Assembly: GCF_003363135.1 (NCBI RefSeq)
Contig: NZ_QRBB01000001.1
Coordinates: forward strand, 2,020,501-2,084,500
Direction of reading: 5' to 3'
Source of the DNA: Alteriqipengyuania lutimaris
GTDB taxonomy: Bacteria > Pseudomonadota > Alphaproteobacteria > Sphingomonadales > Sphingomonadaceae
Length of the DNA stretch: 64,000 bases
Shown in pieces: positions 3,138 through 17,287 of the stretch. Positions within the stretch are counted from its first letter, which is position 1, and every line of letters starts with the position of its first letter. A model generated the notes under the pieces. That model was not told the origin of the DNA, made no database searches, and was given only the letters and a program-made list of their open reading frames with translations. The position numbers and the translations under genes are program-made.

Positions 3138-3608
3138 TTATGTCGGCTCCGACAGCCGTTCCACCAGCGCCTTCGCCGCCGCGTCGACATCCTCCCACGT
3201 ATATTCGAACTGCTCCTCGCCGTCGTGATACGGGTCCGCGATCGCCGCGCCCTCGCGCCCGGGCACGAGGTCCATCAGCAGAGAGACATGCACGCGCGAT
3301 CCCTCGGGCCTCAGCGCCTCGATATTGCGCAGGTTCTGATGATCCATCGCGAAGATATGCGTGAAGCGGTCGAAATCCTCGACCACCAGCTGGCGGCCCG
3401 CGTAGCCCGATATGTCGATCCCGTGCTTGGAGGCTTCCTCGACGCTGCGCGGATCGGGCGGGCTGCCCACGTGGTAGTCCGCGGTGCCCGCACTGTCGGC
3501 TTCCGCCTCCAGCCTGGCCTTTTCCGCAGCGTCGCGGAACGCCGCTTCGGCGAGGGGGGAGCGGCAGATATTGCCAAGGCATACGAACAGGATTGCGGGT
3601 TTTTCCAT
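3138..3608 (-). CDS. Low-molecular-weight protein tyrosine phosphatase
   Basis: The 156-residue protein has the phosphate-binding loop CLGNICRS (Cys10 nucleophile, Arg16) near the N-terminus and the general-acid motif DPYH at residues 125-128. These two together define the family. Such enzymes remove phosphate from tyrosine, often linked to exopolysaccharide control, or from small substrates. The gene is divergent from the DUF885 gene with a 65-base gap. Arsenate reductases share the fold, but the DPYH motif and N-terminal loop favour the phosphatase. Confidence 0.92.
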   Translation of the reverse strand: MEKPAILFVCLGNICRSPLAEAAFRDAAEKARLEAEADSAGTADYHVGSPPDPRSVEEASKHGIDISGYAGRQLVVEDFDRFTHIFAMDHQNLRNIEALRPEGSRVHVSLLMDLVPGREGAAIADPYHDGEEQFEYTWEDVDAAAKALVERLSEPT

Positions 3609-3673
3609 GGCTCCGGCCTACTGGACGCACGCCGCCGGGCGCAATAGGGATTGCCGCAAACAAGGGGAACCAC

Positions 3674-5428
3674 ATGAAGCACCTGCTCGCCGCCACCGCG
3701 CTCGCATTCACCATAGCCAGCCCGCTGACCGCCGGCCCGGTGGAGGATTACAAGGAACTGCGCGAAGACGTCTGGCAGGACATGCTCGACGACAATCCTA
3801 CCTTGGCGACTTCGGTTGGCGATCGGCGCGGCGACGGGCAGCTGGGCGACCTCAGCATGGCGGCCTATGATCGCAACGTCGCCGAAGACCGCGAATTCCT
3901 CGCGCGGCTGAACGCCATCGACGAGAGCGCGCTGCCCGAGGACCTGCGGGTCGACTACGCGATTCTCAAGTCCTCGCTCGAAGATGGAATCGAGGGCGCG
4001 CAGTTCGACCAGACCCGCTACGTCCTGTTCACCAATCGCGGCGGCTGGTTCAGCTGGATCGCGTCGCTGCCCTACAGCTCCCCGCTCTTCACTAGGGCCG
4101 ACTACGAAAGCTACGTCTCGCGCCTCGAAGCCTATGGCGCCCAGAACGAAGCCGGGATCGCTCGCAGCCGCGAGGCGGTGGCGCGCGGGCTGACGCAGGC
4201 ATGCGGGCCGATGGAAGGCGTCGAGGACCAGATCACCGGCCAGATGGCGGACAACCCCGAGGAATCGGGCTTCTGGCGTCCCTTCGAAAAGCGCCCGTCG
4301 ACCATTTCGGAAGCCGACTGGGCAGCCTTGCAGGCCCGTGCCCGCGCCGCGCTGACCGATGTGGTGTTCCCCGCCTACGAGGATTTCCTCAGCTTCTACA
4401 CCGAGGAATACGCGCCCGAATGCCGCACCGGCCTGCCCGGTGTCGCCGAAACCGCCAATGGCGATGACTACTACGCCTATCGTGTCCGCAGCTTCACCAC
4501 GACCGACATGACGCCGGACCAGATTCACCAGCTCGGCCTGTCCGAAGTCGCGCGGATCCGGGCCGAAATGGAGCAGGTCGCGGCCGAGGCCGGGTTCGAC
4601 ACCCGCGAGGCCTTCGTCGAACACCTGCGCACCGACCCGCAATATTACATGACCGACGAAGCCGAGTACGAACGCTATGTCGGCGCGCTGGCCAAGCAGA
4701 TCGACGGCTGGATGCCCAAGCTGTTCGGCACCCTGCCGCGCCAGCCCTACACGGTCCAGCCGATCCCCGCCGCGCAGGCGCCGGGCAACACCACCGCCTA
4801 TTACGAGCCGGGTTCGCTCGAAACCGGGCAGGCGGGCATCTACCGCATCAACCTGACCGAGCTGGACCAGCGCCCTCTGTGGGAACTGCCGGCGCTCGGC
4901 GTGCACGAGGCGGTGCCGGGCCACCACCATCAGATCGCGCTTCAGCAGGAGCTCGACCTCCACCCGCTGCGCCGCAACGGCACCTTCTTCACCGCCTTCG
5001 TGGAAGGGTGGGGCCTCTATTCCGAGCGGCTCGGGATCGAGATGGGGCTGTACGACACCCCCGCCAAGCAGATGGGACGGCTGAGTTACGAGATGTGGCG
5101 CGCCACCCGGCTGGTGGTCGATACCGGCATCCACTCGAAGGGCTGGACCAAGCAGCAGGCGGTCGATTTCATGACCGAGAACACCGCGCTTTCCGCCGCG
5201 AATATCGATGCCGAGGTCAACCGCTACATCACCTGGCCCGGCCAGGCGCTGGCCTACAAGATCGGCGAGCTGAAGATCCGGGAACTGCGCACCCGCGCGG
5301 AAGAGGCGCTGGGCGACCGGTTCGACCTGCGCGCGTTCCATGACGCAGTGCTGAAAAACGGCGCGGTCCCGCTGGATGTGCTGGAAGAGCATGTCGATCG
5401 CTGGATCGCGGAGCAGCAGGCGGGCTGA
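3674..5428 (+). CDS. Secreted DUF885 family protein (putative metallo-hydrolase)
   Basis: The product is 584 residues. A signal peptide ([20 protein letters not shown]) precedes a long helical protein typical of DUF885. The probable metal site is [10 protein letters not shown], and [11 protein letters not shown] downstream is the second hallmark of the family. The family is often annotated as a peptidase-like zinc hydrolase; the substrate is unknown. I chose the ATG at 3674 because it gives the signal peptide and has GGGGAAC just upstream; an earlier in-frame ATG gives no such signal. It has its own divergent promoter region shared with the phosphatase gene. Confidence 0.88.
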
Positions 5429-7144: not shown

Positions 7145-8650
7145 TCAGGAAACCTCGCCGGCACCCGTCGCTTCTTCCAGCCCGACGACGATGATCGTTC
7201 GTCCGCCGCCGAACTCCTCGCGCACCACGATCAGCCCCTGCCGCTCCATATGTTCGAGCAGACGCCGGATGCGGCTCGGCGATGAACTGCCGTAGACGCG
7301 TGCCAACTCGTCCTCGTCGGGCGCGGGGCGACCCTGGGCCGCAGCGACCGCGATCGCGAGGTAGGGGGCGAGCACGTCCTCCGGCACGGCCTGGGAAAGC
7401 TCTTCGATCGCGTCGCGTGCGGGCTGCGGAAGGTCGTGCAGCCCCGCGCTCGCGAAGGCGAACAGGCGGCGGAACTCGAGCATGTCGACATGCGCGCTAG
7501 GCACGCCTTGTTGGCGGCAGCGCTGCGCGAAGCTGCGGAACAGAGCGGCGGAGGACTGGAAGGTGGCGCCTTCCTCCGCTGCGAGATCGGCGATGATCTG
7601 AGAGAGCGCGTCGGCGCTGTCGCCGGTGTCGGTTCGAGGTGCCTCCTCGGTCGGGGGATCGCCCGATCCGTTGCCCTCCAAGCTTTCCCCACCGGCTGCA
7701 TTCGCGGCAGCACGCTCGGAAATCGCCTGCTCGATCTCGGGTGTGCGCGGGGGCGGGGGAGGGGCCGGCGCCGGGGCAGGCGTGGTCGCTTCCTCCGCCA
7801 GTTCGGAGTGGAGCAGCGCCTCCAGCTCCTCGCCCTTCGCTTGCGGCAGCGGCATCAGGCCTTCGGCGGCGTTCTTCCCGCCGGTCCGCACGTCGCCGAT
7901 GTGGACTGCGATCGGGCGGCGGCTGATCGCAGGGCCGAGGCCCAGGAAATGGCCGCGCTGCAGATCGCGGATACGCTCTGCCTGCCGGCGGTCCATGCCG
8001 AGCAGATCGGCCGCGCGTTGCATGTCGATGTCGAGGAAGGTTCGGCCCATCAGAAAGTTCGAGGCTTCGGCGGCGACGTTCTTCGCCAGCTTGGCCAGGC
8101 GCTGTGTGGCGACGATCCCCGCGAGGCCGCGCTTGCGCCCGCGGCACATCAGGTTGGTCATCGCGGACAGGGTGAGGCGGCGCGTGTCCTCGGCCATGTC
8201 GCCTCCAGCAGAAGGCGCGAACATCTGCGCCTCGTCGACCACCACCAGCGCCGGATACCAGTGCTCGCGCGGGGCATCGAACAGCGCAGCCAGGAACAGC
8301 GCGGCGCAGCGGATCTGTTGCTCCACTTCCAGCTCGTCGAGCGCGAGCACGACCGAGACGCGGTGCTGGCGTACACGCCCCGCCAGCGCCTCGATCTCGC
8401 GCACCGAATGGGCGGCGCCGTCGATCACGATATGGTCGAATTCGTCCGCCAGGCTGGTGAAGTCGCCCTCCGGGTCGATCACCACTTGCTGGACGAGGCC
8501 GGCGGTCTGTTCGAGCAGGCGGCGCAGCAGGTGCGACTTGCCCGAGCCCGAGTTGCCCTGGACGAGCAGCCGCGTCGCGAGCAGTTCGGCAATATCGACG
8601 GACACGCCCTGTCCGGACGAATCCGTGCCCATTTCGATCTGCGACCTCAT
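7145..8650 (-). CDS. HerA-like ATP-binding protein (DUF87-type P-loop ATPase)
   Basis: The product is about 501 residues. The P-loop GNSGSGKS lies some 35 residues in, and Walker B is ALVVVDEAQMFAP. A region GLAGIVATQRLAKL with a nearby arginine resembles the sensor and arginine finger of HerA/FtsK ATPases. After residue 270 there is a proline-rich linker (about PAPAPPPPPR), then a helical C-terminal domain ending with a winged-helix-like segment. HerA ATPases pump or process DNA, but no NurA-type nuclease partner is adjacent. The start at 8650 is a choice; ATGs at 8686 and further inside are possible. Confidence 0.8.
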   Translation of the reverse strand: MRSQIEMGTDSSGQGVSVDIAELLATRLLVQGNSGSGKSHLLRRLLEQTAGLVQQVVIDPEGDFTSLADEFDHIVIDGAAHSVREIEALAGRVRQHRVSVVLALDELEVEQQIRCAALFLAALFDAPREHWYPALVVVDEAQMFAPSAGGDMAEDTRRLTLSAMTNLMCRGRKRGLAGIVATQRLAKLAKNVAAEASNFLMGRTFLDIDMQRAADLLGMDRRQAERIRDLQRGHFLGLGPAISRRPIAVHIGDVRTGGKNAAEGLMPLPQAKGEELEALLHSELAEEATTPAPAPAPPPPPRTPEIEQAISERAAANAAGGESLEGNGSGDPPTEEAPRTDTGDSADALSQIIADLAAEEGATFQSSAALFRSFAQRCRQQGVPSAHVDMLEFRRLFAFASAGLHDLPQPARDAIEELSQAVPEDVLAPYLAIAVAAAQGRPAPDEDELARVYGSSSPSRIRRLLEHMERQGLIVVREEFGGGRTIIVVGLEEATGAGEVS

Positions 8651-8737
8651 ACCCCTAGCGAATAGGTGGCGAGGGGCGGCGCGCAAAGGCGGATCGGGCA
8701 GTTATCCCGCTCTCGCTGCGCGCCGCCTGCGATCGCG

Positions 8738-9955
8738 TCAGACCGCTTTCAGCCCCTCGTCGAGCTGTGCGATCAGATCCTCGGCGTCTTCGACCCCGCA
8801 CGAATAGCGCAGCAGCGTCTCCGAAATGCCCAGTTCAGCACGCTGCTCCGCGGTGCACTCGACATGGCTGGTGACCGACGGCGGGCCGATCAGCGTGTTG
8901 ACCGAGCCAAGGCTGGCCGCACGGTGGACATATTTGAGCCCGCCGACGAAGCGCTTGAGCGCGTCGAAGTCGCCATCGACCGAGAAGCTGAGCATCCCGC
9001 CGAAGCCGGACATCTGTCGCTTCGCCACCTCGTGCTTGTCGTGGCTTTCGAGCCCCGGATAGAACACGCTCGCCACCTTCGGGTGCTGATGCAGGAACTT
9101 CGCCACGGCGAGGCCGGTCTCGTTCTGCTTCTTCACGCGCAGGTCGAGCGTCTTCATCCCGCGCAGCAGGAGATAGGCGGAGAAGGCGGACAGGACGGCG
9201 CCGCAGATCTCGCGGTGCTCATAGACAGTCTTCACCAGATCCTCGCGCCCGATGAGCACGCCGCCCATCGCATCGTCGTGCCCGCCGAGATACTTGGTCG
9301 CCGAGTGCAGCACCAGATCGGCACCGAAGGCCAGTGGCTGCTGGTTGATCGGGGTCGCGAAGGTGTTGTCGACCACCACGATCGCGCCCCGTTTCCTGGC
9401 CGCGCGGATCGCCCGGTCGAGATCGATGATCTTGAGCGTCGGGTTGGTCGGGGTTTCCAGATAGACCAGCTCGCAGCCCTTATCGATCGCCGCGTCGATC
9501 GCGTCGGCATCGCTGGTTTCGACCAGATCGACCTCGATATGCATGCGCGGGAGCGTATCCATGAACAGGCGGCTGGTGCCGCCATAGCTGTCCTTGATCG
9601 AAACCACGCGGTCGCCCGGTGACAGCAGCGAGAGCAGCGTGTTCGAAATCGCCGCCATTCCGCTGGCAAAGGCGATCGCCTTTTCCCCGCCTTCGAGGAT
9701 CCGGCATTTCTCCTCGAACACGCCTACGGTCGGGTTCGTGTTGCGACTGTAAATATACCCTTCGGCCTGCCCCAGTGCGACCGCGGCCCATTCGTCCATA
9801 TCCTCGTAGGCGAAGGGGGCGCTCTGCACGATCGGCACCTGCGCGGCCCCGAAGGCCAGCGGCTTTTCCTCGCCCCCCCACACGGCGATGGTGGCGGGCT
9901 TCTGGTTGATGATGGACATGCGGTCTGCCCCGTTCGCGGGCGTGTAATCGGCCAT
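8738..9955 (-). CDS. Cystathionine gamma-synthase family PLP-dependent enzyme
   Basis: The product is 405 residues. Family motifs appear in order: YIYSRNTNPT (PLP-phosphate Tyr/Arg region), FASGMAAI, DSYGGTSRLF, LVYLETPTNP, VVDNTFATP, and the Schiff-base lysine in SATKYLGGH. Members carry out gamma- or beta-elimination or replacement on sulfur amino acids; the exact reaction (synthase, lyase or sulfhydrylase) cannot be read from the motifs. It begins four bases after the stop of the cyanophycinase fusion, with GAGG nine bases before the ATG, so it is probably translated from the same mRNA. That neighbour suggests a role with amino acids released from peptides, though this is inference. Confidence 0.88.
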   Translation of the reverse strand: MADYTPANGADRMSIINQKPATIAVWGGEEKPLAFGAAQVPIVQSAPFAYEDMDEWAAVALGQAEGYIYSRNTNPTVGVFEEKCRILEGGEKAIAFASGMAAISNTLLSLLSPGDRVVSIKDSYGGTSRLFMDTLPRMHIEVDLVETSDADAIDAAIDKGCELVYLETPTNPTLKIIDLDRAIRAARKRGAIVVVDNTFATPINQQPLAFGADLVLHSATKYLGGHDDAMGGVLIGREDLVKTVYEHREICGAVLSAFSAYLLLRGMKTLDLRVKKQNETGLAVAKFLHQHPKVASVFYPGLESHDKHEVAKRQMSGFGGMLSFSVDGDFDALKRFVGGLKYVHRAASLGSVNTLIGPPSVTSHVECTAEQRAELGISETLLRYSCGVEDAEDLIAQLDEGLKAV

Positions 9956-9959
9956 TATC

Positions 9960-11906
9960 TCAATCCTCGTTCGCCAGCGTTTCGTCGGCGTAGATCGCCT
10001 CTTGCGCCGGGTAGTCGCTGCTGGCCGCGCCCCGATACATTCCTTCGGTGTTCATCGCGAAGGCGACGCGCCCCATCGCGTCCATCGCGATCAGGCCGCC
10101 GTCGCCGCCCAGCGCGCCGATCGACCCGATCGTATCGTCGGCCGCCTGTGCGATGCTCTGTCCGTTCCACGCGACCCGGTCGCACACTTGGCGGCCCGCG
10201 CTCTCTCGGATGAAATATTCGCCGGTGCCGGTGCCCGAGACCGCGCACTTGCCGTTTGCGGCGTAGGTGCCCGCGCCGATGATCGGTGAATCGCCGATCC
10301 GGCCCCAGCGCTTGCCGGTGAGCCCGCCAGTCGAGGTGGCGGCAGCGAGGTTGCCGTCCTTGTCCAACGCCACCGCGCCCACCGTGCCGAAGCGATGCGT
10401 GGGATCGAGCGCGAGGGCGGAAAGGTTGTCCCGGCGCCACTCCTCGATTTGCCGCCAGCGGTGCTCGGTGCGGAAGTAGGACGGATCGACCTGCTCGATC
10501 CCCTGTTCGCGGGCAAACTGATCCGCACCGTCGCCCGACAGGAGTACGTGGCGCGAATTTTCCAGCACCGCACGCGCCAGTGTAACGGGGTGTTTCGTGG
10601 TGCTGACCGCCGCAACCGCGCCTGCATTCAGGGTCGCGCCGTCCATGATCGCGGCGTCGAGCTGGTTGCGACCTTCGGCATCGAACACCGCGCCGCGTCC
10701 CGCGTTGAACAGCGGATCGTCCTCGAGGATCCGCAGCGTCGCTTCGACCGCGTCGAGGCTGGTGCCGCCGTTTTCGAGAACTTCGGAGCCTGCTGCCAGC
10801 GCCGCCTGCAGGCTGGCGCGGTACGCCGCTTCCATCTCGGGCGTCAGGTCGCCGCGCTCGATCACGCCCGATCCGCCATGGATGGCGAGCGACCATTCGC
10901 GCCGCGCGGGCGGGGCGGGAACATTGCTCAACTCGCCGCCGCTGACCTGCGCAGTGCCGGAGACAGCAGGGTTGCTGACGGTCATATGGGCGAGATCTGC
11001 CCGGCTCTGCTTCCCGATGGCGGTTAGTTCGACCTGAGCCCATTCGAGTGCGCCGCTGTCTTCAAAACCCGGCGCGCCCTGTGGACGGACGAGCCATGCA
11101 TGCCCGTCGCTGGTCGTATGGAGGCGTGCGGTTCCATCGGCCTCGACGCACAGCGCAGTGTCCTCGTCGATGCCGAGGCCGATCGCGTCCGTGTTACCCG
11201 CAGCTCGCGCCTGCGCCAGGAAAGCGACCAGCCGGCCGAGCCGGTCGCGCTCGCTGAAATGCGTGTCGGTGATGACATTGCCAAGGAAAGGCGCGGTGAG
11301 AAAATCGCTCACCAGCGTCACCTTAGAGCCCCTCGGATCGGCGAGTGCTTCGCGCGAATCGACCGCCTCTTCGGCCAGTGCGCCGTATCCGGTGCCGCCC
11401 AGGATCGCGAGGCCTGCGCTGGTCCCGCCAATCGGGCGACCCGCGGCCATATGAGCGTTGAGCGCAATCTCGACCGGCGTGTCCCGCCAGAAGCGCACAT
11501 ATTTCGACTGGTCGCCGCCTGCGATGAAAATTCCGTCGGCATGGGCGAGAATCTCGCCCACTCGCGGGTCGAAGGCGGCGTCGCGGTTCGCAAAGACCAG
11601 CGTCTGGACCGACGCGAGCCCGCCGATATTCTCCATCAGCCATTCGCCGTCGCTGCCATCCTGCGAGGCGCGCAGGATGACGAGGTGGCCGCCGCCTGCC
11701 TTGCCCGCGAACCAGCGCCACGCGGGCTTGCTCCAGTCAGACCCGCCGATCAGCAGCAGACCCGGCGACGGCACACCCGGCGTTGGATCCGACAGGTCTC
11801 CGGTCTCGTAATAGGTGTAACCGGGTGCGTCCCTGGCCTGGGCAAGGCCTGGCAGCAGCAGGGATAGGGCAGCGAGAAGCGCGACGACCAAACTTCTGGG
11901 TTGCAT
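9960..11906 (-). CDS. Exported cyanophycinase (S51) - isoaspartyl peptidase (Ntn) fusion
   Basis: The 648-residue protein has a signal peptide (MQPRSLVVALLAALSLLLPG, cleavage near AQA). Residues about 45-280 are a peptidase S51/cyanophycinase domain: LLLIGGSDWS, IFIAGGDQSKYVRFW, nucleophile elbow GGTSAGL with Ser163, and ITDTHFSERDRLGRL. Residues about 335-648 are a plant-type asparaginase/isoaspartyl peptidase: SLAIHGGSG, NAGRGAVF, the autocleavage site HRFG/TVGAVALD with Thr508 as nucleophile, and STGGLTGKRWGRIGDSP. Together they could cut cyanophycin to beta-Asp-Arg and then to Asp plus Arg outside the cytoplasm. The start at 11906 has GGGAGG eight bases upstream. Substrate is inferred from the families. 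Confidence 0.88.
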   Translation of the reverse strand: MQPRSLVVALLAALSLLLPGLAQARDAPGYTYYETGDLSDPTPGVPSPGLLLIGGSDWSKPAWRWFAGKAGGGHLVILRASQDGSDGEWLMENIGGLASVQTLVFANRDAAFDPRVGEILAHADGIFIAGGDQSKYVRFWRDTPVEIALNAHMAAGRPIGGTSAGLAILGGTGYGALAEEAVDSREALADPRGSKVTLVSDFLTAPFLGNVITDTHFSERDRLGRLVAFLAQARAAGNTDAIGLGIDEDTALCVEADGTARLHTTSDGHAWLVRPQGAPGFEDSGALEWAQVELTAIGKQSRADLAHMTVSNPAVSGTAQVSGGELSNVPAPPARREWSLAIHGGSGVIERGDLTPEMEAAYRASLQAALAAGSEVLENGGTSLDAVEATLRILEDDPLFNAGRGAVFDAEGRNQLDAAIMDGATLNAGAVAAVSTTKHPVTLARAVLENSRHVLLSGDGADQFAREQGIEQVDPSYFRTEHRWRQIEEWRRDNLSALALDPTHRFGTVGAVALDKDGNLAAATSTGGLTGKRWGRIGDSPIIGAGTYAANGKCAVSGTGTGEYFIRESAGRQVCDRVAWNGQSIAQAADDTIGSIGALGGDGGLIAMDAMGRVAFAMNTEGMYRGAASSDYPAQEAIYADETLANED

Positions 11907-12060
11907 GTATCGACCTCCCAAAGCGACCGGACCGATTATGGGAAAACGGCGCATCGGCGGCCGGAATGCCACACGCCCGCTTGCCCCTGTCAAACGATTC
12001 GACCGGCGCCAGCTTCGCAGATAGGTTGGATTGAATCAGGACTAATCGGCATATCCAGAG

Positions 12061-12073
12061 ACAGATTTTGTCG
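12061..12073. promoter_or_regulatory. Putative Lrp/AsnC operator in the divergent promoter region
   Basis: The 13-base ACAGATTTTGTCG lies between the divergent fusion gene (start 11906) and the Lrp/AsnC gene (start 12097). With the preceding base it forms a dyad GACA-N5-TGTC. Its exact reverse complement occurs at 12593-12605 in front of the TonB receptor gene. The placement 24 bases before the regulator start codon suggests autoregulation. Binding is inferred, not shown. Confidence 0.6.
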
Positions 12074-12096
12074 CTAATGAGCCCAGGGAGGCCAAT

Positions 12097-12570
12097 ATGA
12101 GGAATATCGACGCGGCAGACGCCCGCCTGCTCGAGGCGGTGCAGGCCGATGCGCACCTGACGGCCGAACAGCTCGGCGCCGCCTGCGGACTGTCTCCCAC
12201 CGCCGCGCTCAAGCGATTGAAACGGCTGCGTGCGGACGGCATCATAGAGCGCGAGGCGGCGATCGTTTCGCCGCGCCCGCTGGGCTACAACATCATGGCG
12301 CTGGTGATGGTGACGCTCGATCGCGAGGATCGCGGCGTGATCGACCGGTTCAAGCAGGACATCCGCAACACGCCCCAGGTCACCAACGGCTATTACATCA
12401 CCGGCGATGCGGATTTCATCCTGACCGTCGTGGCGCGCGATATGGACGAGTACGACGAATTTACTCGTGACTTCTTCTACGACCGCCATCCGATCAAGAC
12501 GTTCAAGACCTGCGTGGTGATGAGCGTGGTGAAGACCAACGGGCCGCTCCCCGTGCACAAAGATGCGTAA
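12097..12570 (+). CDS. Lrp/AsnC family transcriptional regulator
   Basis: The product is 157 residues. An N-terminal winged helix-turn-helix (DARLLEAVQADAHLTAEQLG then LSPTAALKRLKRL) is followed by the RAM/AsnC ligand domain with VVARDMDEYDEFTRDF and a Gly-rich turn YYITGDADF. Lrp/AsnC proteins sense amino acids and bind DNA as dimers or octamers. It sits between an exported peptidase fusion and a TonB receptor, with matched operator-like motifs on both sides, so it is the likely local regulator. AGGGAGG precedes the ATG. Confidence 0.93.
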   Translation: MRNIDAADARLLEAVQADAHLTAEQLGAACGLSPTAALKRLKRLRADGIIEREAAIVSPRPLGYNIMALVMVTLDREDRGVIDRFKQDIRNTPQVTNGYYITGDADFILTVVARDMDEYDEFTRDFFYDRHPIKTFKTCVVMSVVKTNGPLPVHKDA

Positions 12571-12610: not shown

Positions 12611-12807
12611 GACGAAGCGGATTTGCCCGAAGCTCTGAACCCGGCGCGATATAGTTTCCGGCAATGATCCTTTGCGCGGCGCATCCGACAGAGAACGCGC
12701 GCGTCAGGGGATGGCCGCTCCGCCAATCGGTGGAGACGGGAGGGGACGCCGGTTCAGGCGAAGTAATCAAGGTCGCGGGTGCGCTGCACCCGAGGGGGAA
12801 CATTTTT

Positions 12808-15684
12808 ATGCGCCGAATCTCAATTGCCATCGCGCTGGCAGGCACCAGCCTGATCGCAACCGCCGCCGCCGCCCAGAGTGCGGATCCGGCGCCGCAGGCG
12901 GACGCGGACGACGATACGCTCGAACTGCGCGACGACGACGCGCCCGAGCAAGGCAATGTCATCATGGTTCTGGGCTCGCGCATTCCGCGCTCGCAAGAGG
13001 AAGGGCCCGCGCCGGTCACGGTCATCAGCTCGGAAGACATCCTCAGGCAGGGCTATGGAGACGTCCCCGAACTGCTGCGCTCGGTCACCCAGAACAACGG
13101 CGAGACGCAGAGCACGCAAAGCTACGGCGCGAACACCTTCACGCCCGGCGCCAAGCAAGTGGACCTTCGCGGGCTCGGCCCCAACCATACGCTGGTGCTG
13201 GTCAACGGCCGCCGCGTCGCCGATTTTCCCATGCCCTATGGCGGGAACAGCAACGTCGCCGACATCTCCAACATCCCCATCGGCCTGATCGAGCGGGTCG
13301 AAATCCTTAGCGGCGCGGCTTCCGCGATCTACGGATCGGACGCGATTTCGGGTGTGGTCAATTTCCAGCTCAAGCAGGAACCGGACGGCACGCGAATCGA
13401 TGCGCAGGTTGGCCTGACCGAGGATGGTGGCGGGGAATCGTGGCGCATCACCGGGTCGACCGGCTTCCGGTCGGGGCCCTTCCACGCGCTGATCGGCGCG
13501 CAGTACAGCGCGCAGCGCCCGCTATGGGGCTACGAGCGCGAAATTCAGGATTCGACCGCCGACAATTCGACGACGGAGGATCCGCTCGCCTACCGCAACT
13601 TCGTGCGATACGATTCGGGCGGCTACTACATCGATCCGGGCGCCTCGACCTGCGCCGATCTGGGCTTCACCAACCAGGGCACCACCTTCTACGCGTCGCG
13701 CGATGGATACGGCTTCGACGTCGACAACGGCTATGCCGCGACCGACGGCTATTTCTGCGGCAGCAACGAAGCGATCGCCTATGGCCAGATCCTGTCGGAC
13801 CGCGACCAGATCAGTCTCTATGGCTCGGCGGGCTATGAACTGAGCTCCACCACCGATCTCTTCCTCGACGCGCAGTTCGGCTATTCGGATCTCGAACTCT
13901 TCAACGGCTTCAAGACCTGGTTCTACGTCGCGCCCGACGGGAACGAGGAGGGGCTGTTCTACAACCCGCAATATCTCGATCCGATCGACACCTACTGGCT
14001 CGATCAGCTCGACGGGTGGAGCCGGACGTTCACCCCCGAGGAGATCGGCGGATTCGAGAACGGGATGATCCAGAACGAATCCTACACGTTCAACATCACG
14101 CCCGGCATTCGCGGGCAGATGGGCCTCGCCGGGCGGCAGTGGGATTACGAGCTCTATTTCAACCATGCCAGCTACAGCTCGCGCATGGCGTGGCCCGAAA
14201 TCGTGATCGACAAGGCGAACGACCTGTTCCTCGGCCAGCCGATCGACGATCCGGACAACATCACCGGCTACCAGCGCTTCGATGCCGACCCGACGCGCCT
14301 GTTCACCGCACTGACCCCGGCCGAATATGCGAGCATCCAGGAATACACGGTCTACGAGCCCAAATCGTGGGTGAACAATATCCAGGCGAACATCACCACG
14401 ACCAGCCTGTTTGAGCTGCCGGCCGGGCCGGTCGGGTTCGCCGTGGTCGCCGAAGCCGGCAAGGCGGGGTACGAGATCAACCCCGATCCCAAGGCGCTGA
14501 CGCAATACTACGTCGGCATCCAGGATTCGGACGGCGAGGGCGATCGCGAACATTGGGGCATCGGCGCGGAAATGCGCGTGCCGGTATTCTCTTTCCTCAG
14601 CCTGACCGGCGCGGGCCGTTACGACGGATACAATTACGCGGGCAACAATTTCGGCGAGTTCACCTATAATGCGGGCGCCGAATTGCGGCCCACCGACACG
14701 ATCCTCGTGCGCGGAGCGATCGGTACGGGCTTCCGCGCACCCGACCTGCACTACGTCTATCGCGGCCCAGGCACGGTCAACGGCGGCGGCGCGGACTATT
14801 ACAACTGCCGCCTCGAACAGACCGACCCCACGCTCGCCGATTGCGTCAATACCCGTTACGAGGGCTTCATCCAGCAGCGCAGCGGCAACCGCGAATTGCT
14901 GCCCGAAACCGCGCAGTCGGTCACTGCGGGGATCGTCTGGGCACCGGGCCGGATCTTCGACATCTCGGTCGACTATTTCCGCATCCGGATGGAAAACCAG
15001 GTCCTCAACCTCGACACCAACAGCCTGCTGATCGACGAGGCGAATTGCCGCCTCGGCACCGATATCAACGGCGGCACGATCGACACGAGCTCACCCACCT
15101 GCGTCGACGCGCTCGAGCGAGTCCAGCGCTATGAGTCGGGCGCGTCGGCTGGCGAACTGCAAAGGATCAGCGTCGTGCCGATCAACGTGGCGCGCGAGCG
15201 GGTGGAGGGGATCGACGTCGCGCTCAACAGCCGTTTCGGCATGGGGCGCGCGGGCGATGTCGCGATCGGCGCCAGCTACACCTACGTCTTCGACCACAAG
15301 ATACAGCAGTATCCGGGCGATCCGACGCTGGACAAATACGTGCCCCTCAACGGCTACGAAATCCCACGCGACAAGGGCAAGGCGTACCTCACGTGGAGCC
15401 TTCCGCGATTCTCGACCACGATCACCGGCATCCGCATCGGCGAGATGACCAACTGGAACTGGGACGACAAGATCGACGAAAGCTATTGGTTCAACCTGTC
15501 GGCCCAGTATGATGTCACTGAGCGGATCCGCCTGTCTGGCACGGTCAACAACCTGTTCGATCGCGACCCGGTCGAGGACCCGAGCCACGCGAGCTATCCC
15601 TATTACAACGGATCGTGGTTCGATGCGGTCGGGCGCCGCTACTACCTTCAGCTGACCTACAAGTTCGGCGGGGAGGCGCTCTGA
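12808..15684 (+). CDS. TonB-dependent receptor (probable peptide/amino-acid oligomer uptake)
   Basis: The 958-residue protein starts with a signal peptide (MRRISIAIALAGTSLIATA, cleavage after AAAAQ). The plug domain follows (PVTVISSEDILRQGYGDVPE, VDLRGLGPNHTLVLVNGRR, ILSGAASAIYGSDAISGVVN). A long aromatic-rich beta barrel ends YYLQLTYKF with a short tail. TonB receptors of this size in sphingomonads import peptides, sugars or siderophores. The neighbours (peptidases, Lrp regulator) point to a peptide substrate, which is inference. The ATG at 12808 has GAGGGGG about ten bases upstream; an in-frame ATG at 12664 lacks a signal peptide. Confidence 0.93.
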   Translation: MRRISIAIALAGTSLIATAAAAQSADPAPQADADDDTLELRDDDAPEQGNVIMVLGSRIPRSQEEGPAPVTVISSEDILRQGYGDVPELLRSVTQNNGETQSTQSYGANTFTPGAKQVDLRGLGPNHTLVLVNGRRVADFPMPYGGNSNVADISNIPIGLIERVEILSGAASAIYGSDAISGVVNFQLKQEPDGTRIDAQVGLTEDGGGESWRITGSTGFRSGPFHALIGAQYSAQRPLWGYEREIQDSTADNSTTEDPLAYRNFVRYDSGGYYIDPGASTCADLGFTNQGTTFYASRDGYGFDVDNGYAATDGYFCGSNEAIAYGQILSDRDQISLYGSAGYELSSTTDLFLDAQFGYSDLELFNGFKTWFYVAPDGNEEGLFYNPQYLDPIDTYWLDQLDGWSRTFTPEEIGGFENGMIQNESYTFNITPGIRGQMGLAGRQWDYELYFNHASYSSRMAWPEIVIDKANDLFLGQPIDDPDNITGYQRFDADPTRLFTALTPAEYASIQEYTVYEPKSWVNNIQANITTTSLFELPAGPVGFAVVAEAGKAGYEINPDPKALTQYYVGIQDSDGEGDREHWGIGAEMRVPVFSFLSLTGAGRYDGYNYAGNNFGEFTYNAGAELRPTDTILVRGAIGTGFRAPDLHYVYRGPGTVNGGGADYYNCRLEQTDPTLADCVNTRYEGFIQQRSGNRELLPETAQSVTAGIVWAPGRIFDISVDYFRIRMENQVLNLDTNSLLIDEANCRLGTDINGGTIDTSSPTCVDALERVQRYESGASAGELQRISVVPINVARERVEGIDVALNSRFGMGRAGDVAIGASYTYVFDHKIQQYPGDPTLDKYVPLNGYEIPRDKGKAYLTWSLPRFSTTITGIRIGEMTNWNWDDKIDESYWFNLSAQYDVTERIRLSGTVNNLFDRDPVEDPSHASYPYYNGSWFDAVGRRYYLQLTYKFGGEAL

Positions 15685-15722
15685 TCGGCAGGGTGATTGA
15701 CCCGGTGCGATGTCGATCCGAC

Positions 15723-15756
15723 AAGGGAGGCTCCCCATCGTGATGGAGCCTCCTTT
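15723..15756 (+). promoter_or_regulatory. Stem-loop covering the ribosome site and start of the C69-like gene
   Basis: Bases 15723-15734 (AAGGGAGGCTCC) pair with 15745-15756 (GGAGCCTCCTTT) to make a 12-base stem with one G-U pair and a 10-base loop. The stem hides the Shine-Dalgarno GGGAGG, and the ATG at 15743 falls at the loop edge. It could limit translation of the C69-like gene, or serve as a terminator of the receptor transcript, although only three T residues follow and they are part of the stem. Confidence 0.6.
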
Positions 15757-17287
15757 CGTGCCTCTCTTCGTCCGCGCCTTCTCCATCGCAATTGCCGGCC
15801 TTGCGCTGGTCGCAACGACCGCCGCGCAGGCGAGCTATGCCTATTACGTCGGCAAGGACCTGACCGAAGACGGCAGCGTGATGGTCGGCGGGACGGGCGA
15901 GGAGGTGTCGAGCCACTGGCTCGAGATCGTGCCCGCGAAGGACCACCCGACCGATGCGACGATCACCGTCGGGGTGACGGCGGACGCGGTGATCCCGGGC
16001 GAACTGATCGCGATCCCGCAGGCGGCGCATACCTTCCGCTACATGCAGATGGCCTATACCGATTTCGAAGGTTTTCCGCCGCCGCTGACCAATGGCGGCG
16101 TCAACGAGCACCAGGTTGCCGTCCGCGACGTCTGGGCGCCGAGCCGGCAGGAACTGGTCGACATGACCCCCCGCCCGCAGCGCGGGGTGCAATATTCCGA
16201 CCTCGCCCGCATCGTGATGGAACGTGCCCGCACCGCGCGTGAGGGCGTCGAGATCATCGGCGATCTGATCGCGGCGCACGGCTTCGCGACCTATGGCGGC
16301 AACACCCACCTGATCGCCGACCCCGACGAAGGATGGGTCGTGTGGGAGTTCGCGGGCGGGCAGGGCCTGTGGGTGGCCGAACGTCTCGGGACCGACGAGG
16401 TGCGCGTGCTCTACCCCGGCGGGATCGGCGAGATACCGACCGAGCTTGCGGGCAATCCCGATTACCTTGCGTCGGACAATTTCATCTCCTTCGCGATCGC
16501 ACAGGGCTGGTACGATCCGGTTTCGGGCGAGCCGTTCAACGTCCAGCACGTCTATGGCGACCAGAGCATCCGCGATTTTCGCGATCCGGGCATCAAGCTG
16601 ATGTCGCCCGCAGCGATGGAGGCGGCGACGCGCGCGATGGCGCCGGTCAGCGAGGCCGATCTGATGGAACGGGTGCGCGATCCGCGCGTGGTCGATGACG
16701 ACAGCGGTTACGGGCAGGTCGTCGGCCTGCGCTCGGACCTCGCAGACCCCGACCTTATCCGCGTCTGGAACGCTCCGACAGGTTCGGTCGCCGCGCCGTT
16801 CAACGTGTGGTGGATGGGCATCGAGAAGGTGCCGATGGAATATGCGCAGCATCGCTATCTGACCAAGGACTCGGCGGCGACCTTCCTCGATCCCGATTAC
16901 CAGATGCAGGAGGCGACCCGCTTTGCCGGGCGCACCTTCAAGCGGGTGATGTATTATGCATGTTCGGCCCCGGACCGCCTGCTGCCGCCGGTGACCGACA
17001 TGCTGACGGGTTTCGAGCGCGAGACGCGCGGCGATCTGGAATGGGTGGAGCGGACCGCGCGGGCGATGATTGCCAGTGGCGACCGAGAGGCGGCGCGTGC
17101 GCTCCTGACGCACTATGCCGAAACCCGCGCCATTGCCGCGCTCGACATGGGCGACACCATGGCCGGCGCGCTCGACGCCTATACGCGGCTCGTGACCGAC
17201 CGGATCGCGCCGGAGGGCAAGCGGATCAACACGCTCGACCCGACGGTCAACTGCCTTGCCGATGGCGACCCGGATATCGCCGAGTAA
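15743..17287 (+). CDS. Secreted C69-like dipeptidase with Ser in place of the catalytic Cys
   Basis: The 514-residue protein has a signal peptide ending AAQA, after which the mature chain would start SYAYYVGKDLTEDGS. In C69 dipeptidases this position is the N-terminal Cys nucleophile (pattern C-x-x-x-x-VGK-x-x-x-DGS); here it is Ser31. Other family blocks are present: SSHWLEIVP, HTFRYMQMAYTDFEG, PPLTNGGVNEHQVAVRDVW, YATYGG-type NTHLIADPDEGW and EQGWYD-like IAQGWYDP. It may act as a Ser-type Ntn hydrolase or be a divergent relative. The start could be ATG 15743 or GTG 15758, which lies just after a stem-loop. It follows the TonB receptor by 58 bases and is probably co-regulated with it. Confidence 0.82.
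   Translation: MEPPFVPLFVRAFSIAIAGLALVATTAAQASYAYYVGKDLTEDGSVMVGGTGEEVSSHWLEIVPAKDHPTDATITVGVTADAVIPGELIAIPQAAHTFRYMQMAYTDFEGFPPPLTNGGVNEHQVAVRDVWAPSRQELVDMTPRPQRGVQYSDLARIVMERARTAREGVEIIGDLIAAHGFATYGGNTHLIADPDEGWVVWEFAGGQGLWVAERLGTDEVRVLYPGGIGEIPTELAGNPDYLASDNFISFAIAQGWYDPVSGEPFNVQHVYGDQSIRDFRDPGIKLMSPAAMEAATRAMAPVSEADLMERVRDPRVVDDDSGYGQVVGLRSDLADPDLIRVWNAPTGSVAAPFNVWWMGIEKVPMEYAQHRYLTKDSAATFLDPDYQMQEATRFAGRTFKRVMYYACSAPDRLLPPVTDMLTGFERETRGDLEWVERTARAMIASGDREAARALLTHYAETRAIAALDMGDTMAGALDAYTRLVTDRIAPEGKRINTLDPTVNCLADGDPDIAE

Follow-up and report, generated by a model that had tools for sequence, protein, structure and literature searches.

Cyanophycin serves cyanobacteria and other bacteria as a nitrogen store, and the enzymes closest to the one presented here are described as separate proteins. 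CphE, the extracellular cyanophycinase of Pseudomonas anguilliseptica and P. alcaligenes, is an exported S51 serine peptidase with a threonine in place of Gln173 of the intracellular cyanophycinase CphB (PMC3235067; here and below, papers with PMC numbers are cited from extracts of their text). The isoaspartyl peptidase IaaA, or EcAIII, is an N-terminal nucleophile (Ntn) enzyme of Pfam family PF01112 (PDB 2zak; RhIaaA, 8dqm). Genes for cyanophycinase and isoaspartyl dipeptidase cluster in genomes without the synthetase gene cphA1, where together with transporters they form scavenging loci (PMC10206079). Here we characterize a gene in a 64,000-nucleotide stretch of the Alteriqipengyuania lutimaris contig NZ_QRBB01000001.1 (positions 2,020,501 to 2,084,500 of the forward strand), hereafter the window, to which all unprefixed coordinates refer. 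Its product joins an S51 and an isoaspartyl peptidase half in one polypeptide, and with a divergent TonB-dependent receptor gene it probably makes up a locus for scavenging cyanophycin, where a single exported bifunctional enzyme would carry out both degradation steps on material fed by the receptor.

The reading frame, starting with ATG at 11906, encodes 648 residues and consists of a predicted signal peptide, the S51 half and the Ntn half, in that order (Table 1). PF03575 (Peptidase_S51) matches residues 115-257 with 33.4 bits against a Pfam gathering cut-off of 23.9, which places the first half in MEROPS family S51. PF01112 (Asparaginase_2) covers residues 338-632 with 357.8 bits (cut-off 27). 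The signal peptide is clear by eye only, and the predicted model puts a helix at residues 4-16 with a predicted local distance difference test score (pLDDT) of about 63-65. The model has the expected fold for each half, including the Ntn fold of the second. The top 50 Foldseek matches concern the Ntn half only, while the structural match to cyanophycinase came from a second pass in which Foldseek's own candidates were re-aligned. The closest solved sequences are cyanophycinases for the first half and Escherichia coli EcAIII for the second. An earlier note on this DNA had proposed that cyanophycinase and isoaspartyl peptidase are combined in one protein, and as regards the two domains this proposal holds: both Pfam domains exceed their cut-offs, both catalytic sites and pockets are conserved, and the predicted folds are those expected. 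In its computationally testable parts the interpretation is supported, with refinements in pocket type, family status and receptor linkage.

Conservation was counted over 183 fused S51 sequences, 124 S51-only sequences and, for the Ntn half, 199 sequences. The GGTSAGL motif with Ser163 was found where it had been predicted. The window protein has a Ser-His-Glu triad (S163, H216, E248) together with Q133, D214, R220, R222 and R225, corresponding to the pocket residues Gln101, Asp172, Arg178, Arg180 and Arg183, and T215 in the position of Gln173. Regarding residues reported as critical for cyanophycinase, six positions are invariant in all fused sequences and R220 is retained in 182. Judged by these aligned residues, the S51 half has a pocket of the extracellular CphE type. 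The likeness to CphE, which was compared through its description and not its sequence, extends to the type of triad and to predicted export. However, CphE is described as a single cyanophycinase of about 45 kDa, whereas the S51 unit of the fusion is joined to an isoaspartyl peptidase. CphB (PDB 3en0, 7uqw) differs from the fusion in being shorter, in carrying Gln173 instead of threonine and in having no second domain.

In the Ntn half, Thr508 aligns to the first residue of the beta chain in isoaspartyl peptidases of solved structure, in agreement with the autocleavage site suggested earlier. The Gly-Thr site, the threonine triad and the substrate-holding arginine and aspartate are all present (G507-T508, T526, T559, R536, D539, G560, G562, N401), and Thr508 and the substrate-binding residues are kept in 199 of 199 sequences. 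Self-cleavage before Thr508 is predicted. The half shares with IaaA/EcAIII the Ntn fold, the threonine nucleophile following a glycine, the threonine triad and the Asp-binding residues. Unlike that enzyme, described as a separate protein, it would be exported behind an S51 half, and its alpha chain would carry the cyanophycinase.

Rather than being a one-off, the fusion belongs to a family. A search through about 5.8 billion proteins, with 7996 candidates scored, gave 2081 matches; all 120 homologues listed have both domains, and the groups named among them are Sphingomonadales, Brevundimonas and Steroidobacteraceae. A scan of species genomes adds Asticcacaulis, Rhodanobacter and many Xanthomonadaceae. 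Among the best 80 of its 586 confirmed loci, both halves are present in 66, and the other 14 have only the Ntn enzyme; one of the latter (L082) was matched from residue 216 and may hold a decayed S51 half. One frame spans both halves in 63 of the 66 loci, one locus (L040) is cut by the contig end, and the remaining two, from Caulobacter (L077, 9986-12047; L079, 9845-11975), have the two enzymes as adjacent separate genes, each with a signal-like start, beside a related receptor. The two-domain order, which the earlier note had suggested looking for elsewhere, recurs in many genomes, and the objection foreseen there, that homologues might have the domains only as separate genes, fails in view of these counts.

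In an even draw of genomes, the full-length fusion was present in at least 11 of 397 from the order and in 3 of 397 from the phylum, where a fourth match (G676) is an Ntn gene alone. The fusion is therefore an uncommon, scattered trait. On a tree of S51 halves, constructed from every fourth protein of P0001-P0240 and the locus frames, the fused state needs at least eight changes on well-supported branches, a count that may be too high because P0237 was scored as solo despite a partial Ntn half and some other solo entries may be cut gene predictions. Fusion and splitting thus look recurrent. One homologue, a 649-residue fusion with 62 percent identity (P0050), has the source label Nostoc sp. 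3335mG; this cyanobacterial label on a sphingomonad-like protein perhaps reflects contamination of that assembly.

The fusion had also been noted to lie beside a TonB receptor. The receptor gene is indeed present and divergent, although an Lrp/AsnC-family gene lies in between. Linkage was scored as a relative of the window receptor above 300 bits, within 4 kb and divergent, and it was observed in 61 of the 66 two-half loci versus none of the 14 Ntn-only loci. Two of the five two-half loci lacking it (L040 and L060) are cut short upstream by the end of the contig. Neighbouring receptors have a median identity of 47 percent to that of the window (range 41 to 90; 525-1759 bits), and the closest paralogue in its own genome reaches only 112 bits. 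All 11 fusion genomes listed for the order draw have the receptor (the window and 10 loci, several of them on the same contigs as in the 66), as do both fusion loci taken from outside the order, and the link is kept across two classes. Among S51-only genes, the receptor is kept at L093 and L096, the contig of the latter ending about 1.8 kb past the S51 match.

A regulator, called by similarity to a few query proteins, is present in 59 of the 66 loci. An extracytoplasmic function (ECF) sigma factor and FecR stand between enzyme and receptor in 33, an Lrp-type gene is located downstream in 23 and upstream, as in the window, in three (L012-L014), and seven have none. Receptors of the ECF/FecR loci L041 and L046 contain the STN signalling domain, which those of L017 and the window are without.

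In Citromicrobium sp. JLT1363, a cyanophycinase gene with a TonB receptor next to it had been pointed out in 2012 (PMC3400609, Figure 4f). This organism is the source of L012, where receptor and fusion orthologue are side by side, and the pair is very probably the L012 locus; the gene is called cyanophycinase there, and the extracts mention neither a fusion nor a peptidase half. A fused enzyme is likewise not mentioned in the extracts of the results and discussion of PMC10206079, nor did a word search of its text for fusion terms reveal one. The same is true of extracts of PMC3951458, with a Caulobacter gene table listing cyanophycinase, and of PMC11890772 and PMC7564069. In Lysobacter, the cphA-cphB pair is a different, storage-type arrangement (PMC4742617), and Pseudoalteromonas tunicata has a secreted putative cyanophycinase (PMC2536512), with no fusion in the extracts of either paper. 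The chemistry and the domains are thus known, while for the joined, receptor-linked form no description was found in the open-access literature (most papers in subscription journals were not covered).

The best match to the cyanophycin synthetase CphA1 in the genome of A. lutimaris is 87.1 bits against a cut-off of 850 bits, and no synthetase above cut-off (E 1e-60) was found in 13 fusion genomes, its own and 12 others, in a search whose control was detected in 2 of 14 named genomes. Storage of self-made cyanophycin was rejected on these grounds, and the substrate would have to come from other cells. As cphA1 is uncommon, occurring in 6 percent of genomes (PMC10206079), its absence alone does not show scavenging. 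The arrangement has the components of the cyanophycin utilization locus of Ben Hania et al. as presented in PMC10206079, namely cyanophycinase, isoaspartyl dipeptidase and a transporter, with no cphA1. It differs in that both enzymes are one polypeptide and that the recurrent transporter is a TonB receptor accompanied by an Lrp or ECF/FecR regulator. Action on cyanophycin is, in this comparison, a presumed property.

We infer catalytic activity, self-cleavage, a periplasmic site and the substrate of the receptor, and propose the following course. The divergent receptor would let cyanophycin, or oligomers of it, into the periplasm. There the S51 half, as a CphE-type serine exopeptidase, would cut the poly-aspartate backbone and free beta-Asp-Arg. 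The Ntn half, having cut itself before Thr508, would hydrolyse this dipeptide to aspartate and arginine, which would then be taken up. The mature product would comprise an N-terminal chain (S51 and alpha) held together with the beta chain. A wider proposal, to which we give even chances, is that a poly-amino acid has an outer-membrane route of its own: a receptor family would import oligomers, one self-processing bifunctional periplasmic enzyme would finish them to aspartate and arginine, and the module would occur fused, adjacent or apart, with Lrp-type regulators beside it in the Alphaproteobacteria and subject to surface signalling by ECF/FecR in Xanthomonadaceae and Rhodanobacter. If one exported enzyme indeed performs both steps and is tied to one kind of receptor, the fusion would mark cyanophycin scavengers genetically and lead from the polymer to free arginine and aspartate by a single enzyme. 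The receptor would be a candidate for the import of a poly-amino acid, and such strains would have their isoaspartyl dipeptidase in the same polypeptide as the cyanophycinase. The usual position of the gene beside one receptor type suggests a compact system by which the nitrogen stores of other microbes are used as food.

Several observations weigh against cyanophycin scavenging. The curated cut-offs for equivalogs are reached by neither half: the S51 half scores 95.3 bits against 126.6 for cyanophycinase (NCBIfam TIGR02069), and the Ntn half 295.2 against 567 for beta-aspartyl-peptidase (NF007589). Filing under either was accordingly rejected; the standalone S51 relatives P0142 and P0159, named cyanophycinase by NCBI, are also below TIGR02069 (101.4 and 98.8 bits). 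Since the IaaA enzymes found in cyanophycin clusters are promiscuous (PMC10206079), the presence of an Ntn half is no proof of substrate. In three of the 66 loci (L037, L058, L061), at least 4 kb of upstream sequence contains no receptor above 300 bits. Among solved structures, the receptor is nearest to those for colicin I, B12 and siderophores, with most of the match in the N-terminal plug part, and its ligand is unreadable from sequence. Furthermore, a standalone S51 relative (L092) stands in a row with amidohydrolase-like and alanine-racemase-like genes, with no receptor match, an arrangement that may point to a different substrate. In this row (L092:5992-9823), the amidohydrolase-like gene has a signal-like start and the alanine-racemase-like gene exceeds the TIGR00492 cut-off. 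Finally, Glu248 is replaced by glutamine or aspartate in 7 of 183 fused sequences and by glutamine in 18 of 124 S51-only sequences.

Among other explanations, the one we consider unlikely, yet ahead of the rest, is that the locus salvages aspartyl and isoaspartyl peptides in general, as they arise when protein is damaged or degraded. In that case the S51 half would attack Asp-X or beta-Asp-X ends in the manner of peptidase E, the Ntn half would finish beta-aspartyl dipeptides and the receptor would import mixed oligopeptides. In favour of this, a C69-family dipeptidase gene adjoins the receptor gene of the window and of the loci most closely related to it; PepE is without four of the six cyanophycinase pocket residues. 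Decidedly improbable is uptake of some other beta-aspartyl-linked compound, such as a modified peptide, siderophore or peptide antibiotic, that the fusion would disarm or dismantle as MccG acts on microcin C products. MccG is an S51 peptidase cleaving an isoaspartyl-nucleotide (PMC9239234), and the solved siderophore and B12 receptors and the gene row of L092 fit such a role. However, MccG belongs to clade V of S51 and cyanophycinases to clade IV (PMC9239234), and the recurrent neighbours annotated with Pfam (clusters 0-4 and one other gene, so that biosynthetic genes are possible in other clusters) are the receptor and regulators only. That one half alone is active, the other being a structural or targeting remnant, would agree with the variation of Glu248 and with receptors adjoining S51 genes that have no Ntn half, but in both halves the nucleophile and the pocket residues show virtually no variation among sequences with identities as low as about 50 percent, and we regard this as very improbable. 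Two genes joined by sequencing or assembly error have a next to negligible probability: the separate genes in relatives such as L077 and L079 are all that could speak for it, and the homologues, fused in every protein listed and in nearly all two-half loci, refute it.

Table 1. Features of the fusion gene and its surroundings in the window
Feature	Positions	Strand	Basis
Fusion gene, 648 residues	9960..11906	-	Open reading frame list, Pfam, alignments, homologues
Predicted Sec signal peptide, residues ~1-24 (MQPRSLVVALLAALSLLLPGLAQA), no lipobox	11835..11906	-	By eye
S51 half, residues ~46-327, C-terminal beta-rich part included	10926..11771	-	
Predicted nucleophile Ser163 (CphB Ser132)	11418..11420	-	Alignment; kept in 183/183 fused
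D214-T215-H216...R220, R222, R225: cyanophycinase pocket and catalytic His, CphE-type Thr	11232..11267	-	Alignment, conservation
Glu248 (CphB Glu201), predicted third triad member	11163..11165	-	E 176, Q 6, D 1 of 183 fused
Ntn isoaspartyl peptidase half, residues 338-648	9963..10895	-	
Predicted self-cleavage site Gly507-Thr508, Thr508 as nucleophile	10383..10388	-	Alignment; T 199/199, G 198/199
Intergenic region, 190 bp separating the divergent fusion and Lrp genes; probable control region	11907..12096	.	Inferred from gene positions
Lrp/AsnC-family regulator	12097..12570	+	Pfam PF01037
TonB-dependent receptor; likelier start 12808 (MRRISIAIALAG...)	12664..15684	+	Pfam PF07715 and PF00593
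Exported C69-family dipeptidase	15710..17287	+	Pfam PF03577

Among the loci tested, the C69 dipeptidase gene is found beside the receptor only in the closest relatives of the window (L012-L014; L099 and L013 are one and the same contig). The residue exposed in C69 Ntn enzymes is usually a cysteine. In all four copies (window, L012, L013 and L014), the residue following the predicted signal cleavage, between AQA and SYAYYVG, is a serine, and signal cleavage itself would free the nucleophile.

On the other side, a pyridoxal phosphate (PLP) enzyme gene of the cystathionine gamma-synthase family (8738-9955, minus strand; over the NF006097 cut-off) starts four bases past the stop of the fusion. In L012, L013 and L014 the same gene, with 87-95 percent identity, likewise comes after the fusion, and the short gap together with the same gene order suggests that the two genes are co-transcribed. 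Just beyond, on the same strand, lies a HerA-like ATPase gene (7145-8686, minus strand). About 4.5 kb from the fusion, a DUF885 protein (3593-5428, plus strand) carries a HEAVPGHH motif and has the look of a zinc peptidase.
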